Assembly: GCA_013297885.1 (NCBI GenBank)
Contig: JAAFIR010000036.1
Coordinates: forward strand, 1 to 50,136
Source: Leptospirales bacterium
Lineage (GTDB): Bacteria; Spirochaetota; Leptospiria; Leptospirales; Leptospiraceae
Direction: 5' to 3'
Length of the DNA stretch: 50,136 nt
Shown: in pieces, positions 37,232 to 41,864 of the stretch
Position numbering within the stretch: position 1 is the stretch's first letter
Layout of the letters: each line of letters starts with the position of its first letter
The notes under the pieces: model-generated
What the model was told of the DNA's origin: nothing
Seen by the model: only the letters and a program-made list of their open reading frames with translations
Databases searched by the model: none
Position numbers and translations under genes: made by a program

Positions 37232-38182
37232 ATTAAATATTATTACTTACTATTTTTCACTATTTCTATTTGTATTACTTCTGTTTCCAGTGAAACATTA
37301 CTTTTAAAAAATGGTGATTTAAAAAAAGGTAAAGTCATTATAAAAACAGATGTAATTCTTATGACTTTAGCTGATGGACAAACTTTAGAATATCCAAGAA
37401 GAGCTGTATTAAAAATTTTATTCAGAGATGATTTAACAGATGCTGAAATTCAAAAAATTCGTATAGAAGAAGAAGCTAAATTAAGACAACTATTAGAAAA
37501 AAAGAATCAAGAAATTGGAATTTTAAATGCAGAACTTCAAGTATTAAAATTAAAAATCGAATCTAAGGATCGTAATGCCCAAGAAGAACTAGAAAAAAAA
37601 TTAATTGAAATTGAAAAATTAAAAAAAGAAATTCAACAAAACAGTTTTAAAGAAGGAATTCCTTCAATTTTTAGCCCTATGTGGAGGTCTGCGATTATTC
37701 CCGGTTGGGGTCATATCTATTTAGGCAATATTAATGGTGATAATTTAAACAAGTCATTAGGTTTTATTTATGGAGTATCATTTATAGGGAGCATTCTATA
37801 CAATATTTCAGTTTATTCCAATGTAACAAATAAAAAAGATGCATATATTTCAGCTGCAAATACTTCTTTTTTTTTAAATTCATTTTTTACTTTGACAGGT
37901 AACCCGAATGCATATATTTTTGCAATTTTATATACCGAACCTAAAAATAATGCTTATTCAGAAGCTGTTGATAGAGCCAACCAAGCACCATTTATTATAC
38001 TAGGTGTTTATTTAGCTCAAATTGTACATTCTTTTGTTTCAGGAGGATTAGTAAAAATGCATGAAAACGAATTTGAGACTTATTCAAAATCTAGTTGGAA
38101 TTTGAGAACTAAAAACGAAAAAAATTTAACTTCAGGTAAAGAATCAGTTTTTTATGAAATCGGATATAGTATTAAATTTTAA
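37232..38182 (+). CDS. Exported membrane protein with SH3/LSm-like N-domain and PGWG C-domain, paralogue of the 12973 gene
   Basis: The start is uncertain. TTG 37211 would give 323 residues, but AGGAG is placed for ATT 37232 (316 residues), which begins right at a signal peptide (KYYYLLFFTISICITSVSS). The mature part has a small beta domain (LLLKNGDLKKGKV, then RRAVLKILFRDD) and a coiled coil (about residues 80-140). A membrane domain opens with WRSAIIPGWGHIYLG. The order and motifs match the gene at 12973. The function is unknown. The tandem lipoprotein genes follow closely, so it may lead an operon. Confidence 0.75.
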   Translation: MKYYYLLFFTISICITSVSSETLLLKNGDLKKGKVIIKTDVILMTLADGQTLEYPRRAVLKILFRDDLTDAEIQKIRIEEEAKLRQLLEKKNQEIGILNAELQVLKLKIESKDRNAQEELEKKLIEIEKLKKEIQQNSFKEGIPSIFSPMWRSAIIPGWGHIYLGNINGDNLNKSLGFIYGVSFIGSILYNISVYSNVTNKKDAYISAANTSFFLNSFFTLTGNPNAYIFAILYTEPKNNAYSEAVDRANQAPFIILGVYLAQIVHSFVSGGLVKMHENEFETYSKSSWNLRTKNEKNLTSGKESVFYEIGYSIKF

Positions 38183-38183
38183 C

Positions 38184-39164
38184 ATGTGTAATTTGAAAAA
38201 ATTTTTCTTTCTATTTATATTCTTAAATTCATGTGTAAATAAAACAAACTATTCACTAGATCCAACAACACCTCTAGGATTTAATCTCCAATACAATCTT
38301 TGTGGAATATTAAAAATATGTATTCCAAAAGTTGATCAAGCTCCAATTCCTGGTGATTCTGGAAAATTAAATTTTACAAATATAAGCAAAACCTCCATTA
38401 CCCTAAATTGGACTTTAGCGATTGATGACAATACTCCTCAAACTGCAATACAATACTTAGTTTATTATTCTACAAAAAATAATATTACAGCTCTAGCTGA
38501 CATAAAAGCAAATGGAATTCCATTTGATTCATTTGTTGAAAATATTAACACAAAGACTATCTCAGGGCTTTCGCCACGAACTTCATACTATTTTAATTTA
38601 GTAGCATTAGATAGTTTTGGCAACCAAGCAGTTTATGTAAATAATAATGCTTATACTCAAAATGATATTATTGTTCTATTTAGAAATACATTTTCTACTT
38701 CAGGAAATATGAGTGGTAGAAATGGAGCAGATAGTTTGTGTTCAACTTCGAAAGAGAATTTCTTTATAGCACCTAACAATATTACTTGTGCTGGTATAAG
38801 AGCTTTTGTTTCTTTTAGTGGTGATAATATTGTAGATATGGCTAAAAAATATGGATTTAATAGTACAAACCCAATAGTATCTGGTTCGAATATTTTAATT
38901 GCAAACAACTGGAATGAACTTACAACGAATAATTCAATTATTAATTCTATTTCGACTTCTCAAGTTTCTATTTCCAGTTATTGGACTTTTACTACCAATA
39001 CTGGTGGAATATTTGATCCAGCAAATTCTTGTTTAAACGGAACTAATGACACTGATACTTATAACGGAATTATTGGTGATGCAACAGCAACAAATGTAGC
39101 TTGGATTAGTAGAATACCTCAAAGTTGTAATACATTACGTAGTATTCTTTGTGTTTGTTATTGA
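38184..39164 (+). CDS. Lipoprotein with fibronectin-III and DUF1554-like domains, copy 1
   Basis: I start at ATG 38184, one base after the preceding stop. An in-frame ATG at 38154 would overlap the upstream gene and bury the signal peptide. The lipobox is LFIFLNSC (Cys17). Residues about 55-145 are a fibronectin type III domain (TSITLNWTLAIDD, YLVYYST, SYYFNLVALDSFGN). The C-terminal part, with GRNGADSLC, CAGIRAF, YWTF and a Cys-rich end, resembles DUF1554, a family described mainly from Leptospira. It is probably surface-exposed. It is the first of a tandem pair with the gene at 39171. Confidence 0.78.
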   Translation: MCNLKKFFFLFIFLNSCVNKTNYSLDPTTPLGFNLQYNLCGILKICIPKVDQAPIPGDSGKLNFTNISKTSITLNWTLAIDDNTPQTAIQYLVYYSTKNNITALADIKANGIPFDSFVENINTKTISGLSPRTSYYFNLVALDSFGNQAVYVNNNAYTQNDIIVLFRNTFSTSGNMSGRNGADSLCSTSKENFFIAPNNITCAGIRAFVSFSGDNIVDMAKKYGFNSTNPIVSGSNILIANNWNELTTNNSIINSISTSQVSISSYWTFTTNTGGIFDPANSCLNGTNDTDTYNGIIGDATATNVAWISRIPQSCNTLRSILCVCY

Positions 39165-39170
39165 ATTAAG

Positions 39171-40151
39171 ATGAAAATAAAAAATTTATTAAATTTAGTT
39201 ATTTTTACAATTATTAGTTGTGTTCAAAAAGAAAATTATCTTCTTGATCCAACAACAGTTTTAGGATTTAATCTCCAATACAATCTTTGTGGAATATTAA
39301 AAATTTGTACTCCAAAACTTGGCCAGGCTCCAATAGCTGGTGACTCTGGAAAATTGAATTTTACAAATATAAGTAAAACTTCTATTACCCTAAATTGGAC
39401 TTTAGCGATTGATGATAATACTCCTCAAACTGCAATACAATACTTAGTATATTATTCTACAAAAGATGATATATCTGTTCTTGCTGACATAAAAGCAAAT
39501 GGAACTCAATTTGATTCTTTTGTTAAAAATATTAACACAAAAACTATTACAGGGCTAAATCCAAGTATAGATTATTATTTTAATTTAATTGCAATGGATC
39601 AAGATGGAAACCAAACTGTATATTTAAAAAACAATACATATACATTAAATGATAAAATTGTTTTATTCAGTTATCAATTTACTACAGGTGCCGTGGGTGG
39701 AGGAAGAATAGGTGCTGATTCACTTTGCTTATATACTAGAAAGAATTTAGTAATTTTACCAATAAATATTAATTGTAATGGGGTTAGAGCATTTATATCT
39801 TTTAACGGAGATAATATAGTTGATATGGCAACAAAGTATCTTTTTGATAGTTCCCTTCCAATTGTATCTCCTACAAATATTAGAGTTGCAAACAACTGGA
39901 ATGATTTAACAACTGGTAATTCAATTTTAAACTCAATGATTACAGCTCAAGTTTCATACTTTCCTTATTGGACATTTACAAAAAATAGTGGTGGAGTTGT
40001 TGATACCAGTAATACATGCATAGGTGGTACAGAAAGTACAGCTTTAGCAAATGGTATTGTTGGAGATCATACTGCAAAAGATTTATTTTGGATTAATAAA
40101 ACAATACAGTCTTGTAATAATATCCGGTCTCTATTATGTATATGTTTTTAA
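39171..40151 (+). CDS. Lipoprotein with fibronectin-III and DUF1554-like domains, copy 2
   Basis: This 326-residue tandem paralogue starts seven bases after copy 1 ends. The lipobox is IFTIISC (Cys17). The fibronectin-III half is nearly identical to copy 1 in protein and DNA. The DUF1554-like half (RIGADSLC, CNGVRAF, YWTF, Cys-rich end) has diverged strongly. The contrast suggests recent duplication or gene conversion in the 5' half. A loop-rich C-terminus with many Asn and Ser residues suits an exposed ligand-binding domain. Ligands are unknown. Confidence 0.78.
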   Translation: MKIKNLLNLVIFTIISCVQKENYLLDPTTVLGFNLQYNLCGILKICTPKLGQAPIAGDSGKLNFTNISKTSITLNWTLAIDDNTPQTAIQYLVYYSTKDDISVLADIKANGTQFDSFVKNINTKTITGLNPSIDYYFNLIAMDQDGNQTVYLKNNTYTLNDKIVLFSYQFTTGAVGGGRIGADSLCLYTRKNLVILPININCNGVRAFISFNGDNIVDMATKYLFDSSLPIVSPTNIRVANNWNDLTTGNSILNSMITAQVSYFPYWTFTKNSGGVVDTSNTCIGGTESTALANGIVGDHTAKDLFWINKTIQSCNNIRSLLCICF

Positions 40152-40278: not shown

Positions 40279-40668
40279 ATGGATAACCAAAAAATTTTAG
40301 AGCAGATTTTAAAAAATCAAGAATTAATACTTGATTTAATACAAAATTATGAACCTAGTAATGGTTATAAAATTGTTTTATTTTTAGTTCCAATTTTTGG
40401 AATTGTCTTTGGATCAGTTTTAATTTCTGTGATTGCCTATTTTTGGTACAAACAAAGACTTGAGTTAATCAGGGCTGGACTTTATAAATCTAGTGGATTT
40501 AACTTCAGAGTATATTCTTTTTTTGTTGGCTTAGTTCTTAGTTTTACAGGTATAGCTTTATTAATAGTGTTTATCCTCGTTTTAGGTAATTCTTTAGCGA
40601 TGTTAGGAGGGGTAATCCCATTAGCGATTGGTCTCAGTCTATTGACATATTACAAAATGCAGAAATAG
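40279..40668 (+). CDS. DUF6249-like small membrane protein
   Basis: The 129-residue protein has a short charged N-terminus, then membrane helices near residues 32-55, 78-100 and 105-125. The C-terminal block GGVIPLAIGLSLLTYY matches the typical end of DUF6249 proteins, which often lie directly before an ECF sigma gene. It overlaps the sigma gene by about 49 bases, and the ribosome-binding site for sigma lies inside it. A membrane tether or regulator of the sigma factor is a fair inference. The product has no known enzyme motif. Confidence 0.7.
   Translation: MDNQKILEQILKNQELILDLIQNYEPSNGYKIVLFLVPIFGIVFGSVLISVIAYFWYKQRLELIRAGLYKSSGFNFRVYSFFVGLVLSFTGIALLIVFILVLGNSLAMLGGVIPLAIGLSLLTYYKMQK
40605..40610 (+). 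promoter_or_regulatory. Perfect Shine-Dalgarno sequence for the AUU-initiated sigma gene
   Basis: AGGAGG lies inside the preceding gene, nine bases before ATT 40620. No ATG, GTG or TTG exists in the sigma frame between the upstream in-frame stop (40587-40589) and ATG 40929, which is already inside conserved region 2. Confidence 0.65.
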
Positions 40669-41228
40669 AAAAAATTTCAGCAGAGCATACAGCAGATTTT
40701 AAATTAGTAATATCTATTCTAGAAGGTAATTATGATTTATTTGAAAAAATTATCGAGAAGTATGAAAATTTAATAAAATCTCAAGCTGTTAGATTTACAA
40801 ATTCTGAAGAAGAATTAGAAGATTTAGTTCAAGATATTTTTATAAAAGTATTCGAATCTCTTTCAAAATTTCGAGGTGAATCAGCATTATCAACTTGGAT
40901 TTATAGAATTTCTTCAAACGAAATCAAAATGAAATTTAGAAAAAAAACTATTTCAGCAACAGAATTAAATGATGAAATTTCAATTCCAAAAGAAAATAAT
41001 ACACCAGAAATACAAATTATTGAATCAGAATTAAAAACAAAAATTTCTCATTTTATTTCAAAATTACCAAAATCATATTCTGATGTTTTAAAACTTTATT
41101 ATTTTGAAAATATGAGTTATAAAGAAATTTCTGAAAAATTAAATATAAAGCTAAATACATTAAAAAGTAATTTACTTCGTGCTAAAGAAAGTTTAAAAAG
41201 GAGTATTGAGAATTATGACAAATCTTAA
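40620..41228 (+). CDS. ECF-type RNA polymerase sigma factor with probable AUU start
   Basis: Reading upstream of ATG 40929 in the same frame restores a full ECF sigma factor of 202 residues. Region 2 has ISILEGNYDLFEKIIEKY, EDLVQDIFIKVF and FRGESALSTWIYRI. Region 4 has LPKSYSDVLKLYYFENMSY and KEISEKLNIKLNTLKSNLLR. The frame is open from 40590, and the only plausible initiator is ATT 40620, nine bases after AGGAGG. Rare AUU starts (as in infC) allow control by initiation factor 3. A sequencing error is the main alternative. The gene sits between a DUF6249-like protein and small membrane proteins that may be its regulators. Confidence 0.85.
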   Translation: MSDWSQSIDILQNAEIEKISAEHTADFKLVISILEGNYDLFEKIIEKYENLIKSQAVRFTNSEEELEDLVQDIFIKVFESLSKFRGESALSTWIYRISSNEIKMKFRKKTISATELNDEISIPKENNTPEIQIIESELKTKISHFISKLPKSYSDVLKLYYFENMSYKEISEKLNIKLNTLKSNLLRAKESLKRSIENYDKS

Positions 41229-41490
41229 AACCAATTTTTTTGCTAGAATCATCCCTTTTAAATACATTAAGGTTTCCCTTTGGATTATGTTTTTGTTATT
41301 TTTTTCACCAATTTTAATAATTTGTGCTGAACCTAGTTTAATTAAAGATTCTAAAACATTAAACTTAGTTATTTGGACTTTAAGTTTCAGTTTTTCCATC
41401 TACACTATATTGCTCGGATTTATTTTAGTTTTTTATAAAAATCCATTTATGCAAGAACTAAAAGACAAATTAGGTTATAACGAAATATAA
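41215..41490 (+). CDS. Small membrane protein, possible anti-sigma factor
   Basis: I start at ATG 41215 with AAGGAG 11 bases upstream. TTG 41206 is nearer the site (two bases) and less likely. The 91-residue protein has two membrane helices (SLWIMFLLFFSPILIIC and LNLVIWTLSFSFSIYTILLGFILVF) with a short cytoplasmic N-terminus. Its start overlaps the last codons of the sigma gene. Position right after an ECF sigma gene suggests a membrane-bound anti-sigma factor, but there is no recognisable zinc-binding or anti-sigma motif. Confidence 0.6.
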   Translation: MTNLKTNFFARIIPFKYIKVSLWIMFLLFFSPILIICAEPSLIKDSKTLNLVIWTLSFSFSIYTILLGFILVFYKNPFMQELKDKLGYNEI

Positions 41491-41864
41491 TGAAATTTTT
41501 TTTGTTCTTTTTTTTTATCTTTTTCATTGTTTCGGAAGATAAAAAAAATTTATCTGTTAAAGATTTTTTTTCACTTTCTGAACAAGAGAGTTTTAATTCT
41601 ATTTCTAAACTGAGTAAAGAAGAAACTGCCAGCTTAATTACCTCCATAAGATCTGAAGCAAGAAAAGATTATAAAGATATTGATAAATTTTATTTGTTAA
41701 TTTCACATTTAGAATCGATTAAAGCAATTGAAGAAGAACAAGAAAGATTAAAAGGGTTAAATTTAGTTTATCAAATTTCACTTCTATTGATTTTACTTTT
41801 GCTAGGCTACATTATTTATTCCCAAAAAAAAACAATCAATGAAGTTAAAAATTTAATAGAATGA
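41490..41864 (+). CDS. Small exported protein with C-terminal membrane helix
   Basis: This 124-residue protein has an N-terminal signal or anchor (FFLFFFFIFFIVS), a charged helical middle (about residues 20-88) and a C-terminal membrane helix (ISLLLILLLLGYIIYS) with a short tail. It overlaps the preceding gene by one base (TAATG) and holB by four (ATGA). No family is recognised. It may work with the preceding membrane protein on sigma control, which is an inference from position only. Confidence 0.6.
   Translation: MKFFLFFFFIFFIVSEDKKNLSVKDFFSLSEQESFNSISKLSKEETASLITSIRSEARKDYKDIDKFYLLISHLESIKAIEEEQERLKGLNLVYQISLLLILLLLGYIIYSQKKTINEVKNLIE

Follow-up and report, generated by a model that had tools for sequence, protein, structure and literature searches.

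An AUU codon as the probable start of an extracytoplasmic function sigma factor gene in a family of Leptospirales

A 50,136-nucleotide stretch of DNA from a Leptospirales bacterium (contig JAAFIR010000036.1 of assembly GCA_013297885.1; hereafter the window) carries a gene for an extracytoplasmic function (ECF) sigma factor that has no serviceable ATG, GTG or TTG start and appears to be translated from an AUU codon lying, together with its Shine-Dalgarno (SD) sequence, within the end of an upstream membrane protein gene (Table 1). Judging from sequence comparisons, we put the probability that this is a real ECF sigma gene translated from AUU 40620, with a strong SD compensating for the poor codon, at roughly 0.86. 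The AUU codon is preferred because no canonical start is available, the SD, its spacing and the ATT are conserved, the synonymous sites that spell them are frozen and the sister families use canonical starts.

The sigma frame follows an in-frame TAA (40587–40589), is open from 40590 and is closed by the TAA at 41226–41228. As the preliminary description of this DNA had it, no ATG, GTG or TTG occurs in the frame ahead of ATG 40929, and the sigma domain begins well upstream of that codon: Sigma70_r2 (PF04542, E = 1.1e-16) is matched from residue 55 of the open frame, at about 40752. Region 4 is matched too (PF08281, E = 3e-14), TIGR02937 scores 114.7 bits against a cut-off of 42.9, and the frame has sigma-70 regions 2 and 4 and nothing of regions 1 and 3, which is the mark of an ECF sigma factor. 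ATG 40929 is the only canonical start in the sigma frame ahead of its C-terminal half; the open reading frame from there yields 99 amino acids (aa) and would be what standard gene callers report, again as described earlier. A start at 40929 would cost the protein most of region 2, so this codon cannot begin a working sigma factor. In an AlphaFold2 model of the protein (mean predicted local distance difference test score, pLDDT, 67) the sigma fold begins at about residue 24, and residues 1–22 score below 50.

Table 1. Coordinates of the sigma gene, its proposed start signal and the adjoining genes in the window.
Feature	Coordinates	Strand	Remarks
DUF6249-like membrane protein encoded upstream, 129 aa from an ATG	40279..40668	+	Pfam DUF6249; 3' end holds the SD and start of the sigma gene
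SD sequence AGGAGG of the sigma gene	40605..40610	+	In the membrane gene's Leu-Gly-Gly codons TTA GGA GGG
Proposed AUU start codon (ATT)	40620..40622	+	Nine-base spacer after AGGAGG
Overlap of 49 nucleotides, coding both for the C-terminus of the membrane protein and for the N-terminus of sigma (ISDWSQSIDILQ...)	40620..40668	+	Sigma read in frame -1
ECF sigma factor, 202 aa counted from AUU	40620..41228	+	Sigma70_r2, r4_2, TIGR02937 E 3e-33
Candidate anti-sigma: small membrane protein of two helices whose gene overlaps the sigma stop	41215..41490	+	Present in all 8 f1 genomes

The order AGGAGG, nine bases, ATT is as proposed earlier, and we compared it among eight genomes in five genera of family f1, the family to which the window belongs. 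All orthologues came from the search of relatives; a scan of contigs for sigma relatives returned one family member (L031, in genome G006, labelled 'Leptospiraceae bacterium') and otherwise unrelated ECF factors. The sigma orthologue is present in all eight genomes and its frame overlaps the end of the membrane gene in each. The preliminary description had named retention of the signal in orthologues as a check on its proposal, and AGGAGG-N9-ATT is indeed invariant in position throughout the family. In none of the eight does a canonical start occur within the overlap or ahead of it; L004 has a single TTG in the sigma linker, which the others lack. Of the canonical and near-cognate codons led by an SD, ATT alone is shared by all eight. 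It is kept even in L006, although there the membrane protein residue has changed from Leu to Phe. In a pattern scan across the phylum each of the eight f1 genomes gave an exact match, and two further exact matches fell elsewhere (G246 and G296). The earlier caveat that a base error might hide an ATG, GTG or TTG can be set aside: no f1 genome restores such a codon, and the same arrangement is kept in other genera, which rules out a sequencing error. Internal ATG codons (e.g. that of MDKYQGMV in relatives) were considered as starts and rejected, being absent from L001 and L008 and preceded by no SD.

The signal is also frozen where the membrane protein would leave it free to vary. In the membrane frame it is spelled TTA GGA GGG xTA xTx CCA TTx, and we compared the 31 codon columns of the membrane gene in which the amino acid is invariant in the eight genomes and its codon 4- or 6-fold degenerate. 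Five of these hold a single codon, namely the TTA, GGA, GGG and CCA of the signal, frozen in every genome, and one TTG outside it, whose G supplies a conserved Asp of the sigma frame; 26 of the 27 comparable columns outside the signal vary. The hypergeometric chance that four given columns fall among five frozen ones of 31 is 1.6e-4, relatedness ignored. Synonymous sites between the genera are near saturation, and GGG accounts for 10% of the Gly codons in f1 membrane genes. The outgroup spells the Leu-Gly-Gly-x-x-Pro of the membrane protein with varied codons, GGA GGG being found in a minority of its genomes only. On its + strand the whole 50-kb window has just three AGGAGG sites.

The sigma frame bears its own marks of translation. 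All insertions and deletions in the linker between the overlap and the sigma domain are multiples of three, the ratio of non-synonymous (dN) to synonymous (dS) substitution there is below 1 (dS 1.38, dN 0.35 for L002/L004, from small numbers), and the motif D-[IL]-L-Q, encoded inside the overlap, is conserved. Together these features indicate that translation begins at or before the overlap. The sigma domain is under strong purifying selection (dN 0.034, dS 0.73 for the same pair). Were the sigma gene decayed or an artefact of sequencing, gene callers would likewise report a 99-aa fragment, but a frame that is open and conserved in eight genomes under such selection refutes that reading, and we regard its chances as negligible.

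The frozen block, TTAGGAGGG(T/G)TARTYCCATT, might instead represent a regulatory RNA hairpin or a protein-binding site and not a start, and a GGG-N5-CCC hairpin does span the SD and ATT in most genomes. Synonymous shuffles that encode the same peptide, however, are predicted to fold just as stably (p 0.35–0.80), the single-sequence fold has a z-score of -0.22, the SD/ATT stem displays no covariation, and a hairpin would supply no start for the sigma gene; we consider this highly improbable.

The preliminary description had itself named a frameshift fusion with the upstream membrane protein as an outcome that would overturn it. Under this reading a programmed -1 frameshift at the end of the membrane gene would yield a membrane-anchored sigma fusion, with the internal SD acting as a stimulator. 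In all eight genomes the sigma frame indeed lies at -1 to that of the membrane gene, and in six of them C_CCA_TTA would let tRNA-Pro slip in the P site. SD sequences placed within a gene ahead of a slip site are known to stimulate -1 frameshifting, as in dnaX. The eight genomes nevertheless share no in-phase X_XXY_YYZ heptamer, four of them (L001, L002, L003 and L006) have no strict one anywhere in the overlap, and the CCCA site reads TCCA in L007 and L008. Frameshifting would moreover give no reason for retaining either ATT or the nine-base spacing, and the sister families produce a separate sigma factor, all of which makes the fusion very unlikely. About equally unlikely is reinitiation at a near-cognate codon (ATA, GTA or CTA) overlapping the membrane stop, or a start at some other linker codon. 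Overlap coupling is common in this operon and a sigma-frame ATA overlaps the stop (ATAG) in L001 and L005, but the codon varies by genome and is preceded by no SD, the membrane stop lies further downstream in L002/L003, and both the conserved SD-ATT and the upstream D-[IL]-L-Q would be left unexplained.

Several points weigh against initiation at AUU 40620. Few window genes have any SD, nine bases is at the long end of the usual range of SD spacing, and the sample comprises eight genomes in five genera, of which L002 and L003 are nearly identical. In addition, the 3' end of the 16S rRNA of the window genome was not found in its assembly, and the anti-SD is taken from relatives; CCTCC is intact in two family relatives, G006 and G007. 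Among window open reading frames of at least 150 aa, few are preceded by any SD-like motif. In this AT-rich organism most starts may lack an SD, and a perfect AGGAGG ahead of ATT would then stand out.

The genes adjoining the sigma gene place the AUU start in an evolutionary context. A DUF6249-like gene adjoins it in three families (f1, f2 and f3); the DUF6249 match of the upstream protein in the window is below threshold (E = 5.1e-6, 26.8 bits versus a 33-bit cut-off). In f2 and f3 the sigma gene has a canonical start (ATG, GTG or TTG) near the stop of the membrane gene. In the sigma tree the f1 proteins group with these f2/f3 neighbours (support 88/79) and are themselves monophyletic (98/95). 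From these sequences, the AUU arrangement is specific to f1 among the genomes compared and is older than its five genera. LIC_12490 of Leptospira interrogans (206 aa, also present in L. biflexa; PMC12655853) may be the orthologue, and a literature search for AUU starts and Leptospira sigma factors found nothing. A second, partial DUF6249-like copy (the first 67 residues) is present in genome G002 (C112:39981-40181; L137), possibly the lost 5' part of a copy that is truncated by the end of contig C121.

The gene that follows the sigma gene in f2 encodes a protein with two transmembrane (TM) segments and, in many genomes, an HxxxCxxC motif, which is a feature of zinc-binding anti-sigma factors. 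A Pfam search of this f2 protein gave no anti-sigma match. Its f1 counterpart, the candidate anti-sigma of Table 1, is shorter, and the match between the f1 and f2 profiles is weak (hhalign probability 63%). Further downstream, between the two-TM gene and a holB-like gene (DNA polymerase III delta prime), positions 41490–41864 encode a conserved small protein with the motif YLLISHLE.I.AI.EE..+L+.LN.VY and one C-terminal TM segment, with orthologues in L004, L005, L007 and L008. Just upstream of the sigma operon are two tandem paralogous genes (38154–39164 and 39171–40151) for exported proteins of ~330 aa, probably lipoproteins, which share LDPTT.LGFNLQYNLCGILKIC and a fibronectin-III-like stretch.

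If translation does begin at AUU 40620, the perfect SD within the final codons of the membrane gene, which lies on the same strand, would steer ribosomes to that codon and hold the 30S subunit at a triplet that the initiator tRNA reads badly, while initiation factor 3 (IF3) would discriminate against AUU and lower the yield. Output of the sigma factor would then be a small fraction of that of both ATG-started neighbours, the DUF6249-like protein and the putative two-TM anti-sigma factor, and its translation would be coupled to that of the membrane gene. This would leave the sigma factor scarcer than its partners, as the GTC start of sigR keeps SigR below RsrA in Streptomyces. A low sigma level brought about by IF3 discrimination may soundly be inferred by analogy with infC and pcnB of Escherichia coli, cvfC1 and ccpN of Staphylococcus aureus and, above all, sigR.

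Streptomyces sigR, which encodes the ECF factor SigR controlled by the anti-sigma RsrA, has a GTC start and a conserved AGGAGGTG and is repressed by IF3, so that RsrA stays in excess (PMC5472188). The f1 gene resembles it in encoding an ECF sigma factor, in its clade-wide non-canonical start and strong conserved SD (AGGAGGTG there, AGGAGG here), and, if the f1 candidate is indeed an anti-sigma gene, in the overlap of such a gene with its 3' end. The two differ in the codon (GTC or GTT versus ATT) and the phylum, the sigR start has not been described as nested, and IF3 repression, shown for sigR, is presumed for the f1 gene. In S. aureus, cvfC1 (AUU) and ccpN (AUA) have conserved extended SDs, and the AUU of cvfC1 yields ~10% of AUG in poor medium (PMC13009471). 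These genes share with the f1 sigma gene a conserved non-canonical start and a conserved strong SD but encode no sigma factors, belong to another phylum and have starts that are not described as overlapping. The E. coli genes infC and pcnB share the AUU start and provide the basis for IF3 discrimination; however, infC is autoregulatory there and pcnB encodes poly(A) polymerase.

The preliminary description had also drawn a parallel with the feedback control of infC through IF3, and this part of it does not hold. In all eight f1 genomes infC begins with ATG (L191, L192, L196, L201, L202, L204, L205 and L206), so f1 has no AUU feedback loop on IF3; in Streptomyces, by comparison, infC starts with ATC. 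The f1 infC ATG, which in most of the eight genomes directly follows GGAGAATGA or a close variant, sets it apart from its counterparts in E. coli, Streptomyces and S. aureus, which are known to start at AUU, AUC and AUA.

Documented bacterial genes with starts other than ATG, GTG or TTG are very few, and a literature search for sigma factors with such starts turned up only Streptomyces sigR. This is the closest precedent, and the f1 gene is best seen as a second case that arose independently, belongs to another phylum, uses a different codon and has its start nested in another gene. We somewhat favour the view that an IF3-limited sigma start evolved independently and family-wide in f1, the sigma level depending jointly on the fidelity of start-codon selection and on how the membrane gene is translated. 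Standard gene callers would trim this real regulator to a fragment across the whole family, and frozen synonymous codons in an overlapping upstream gene offer a simple comparative test for finding more such starts. A second independent case among ECF sigma factors suggests that weak starts serve generally to limit sigma factors and are no oddity; if true, they would be a recurrent way to hold sigma factors below their partners.
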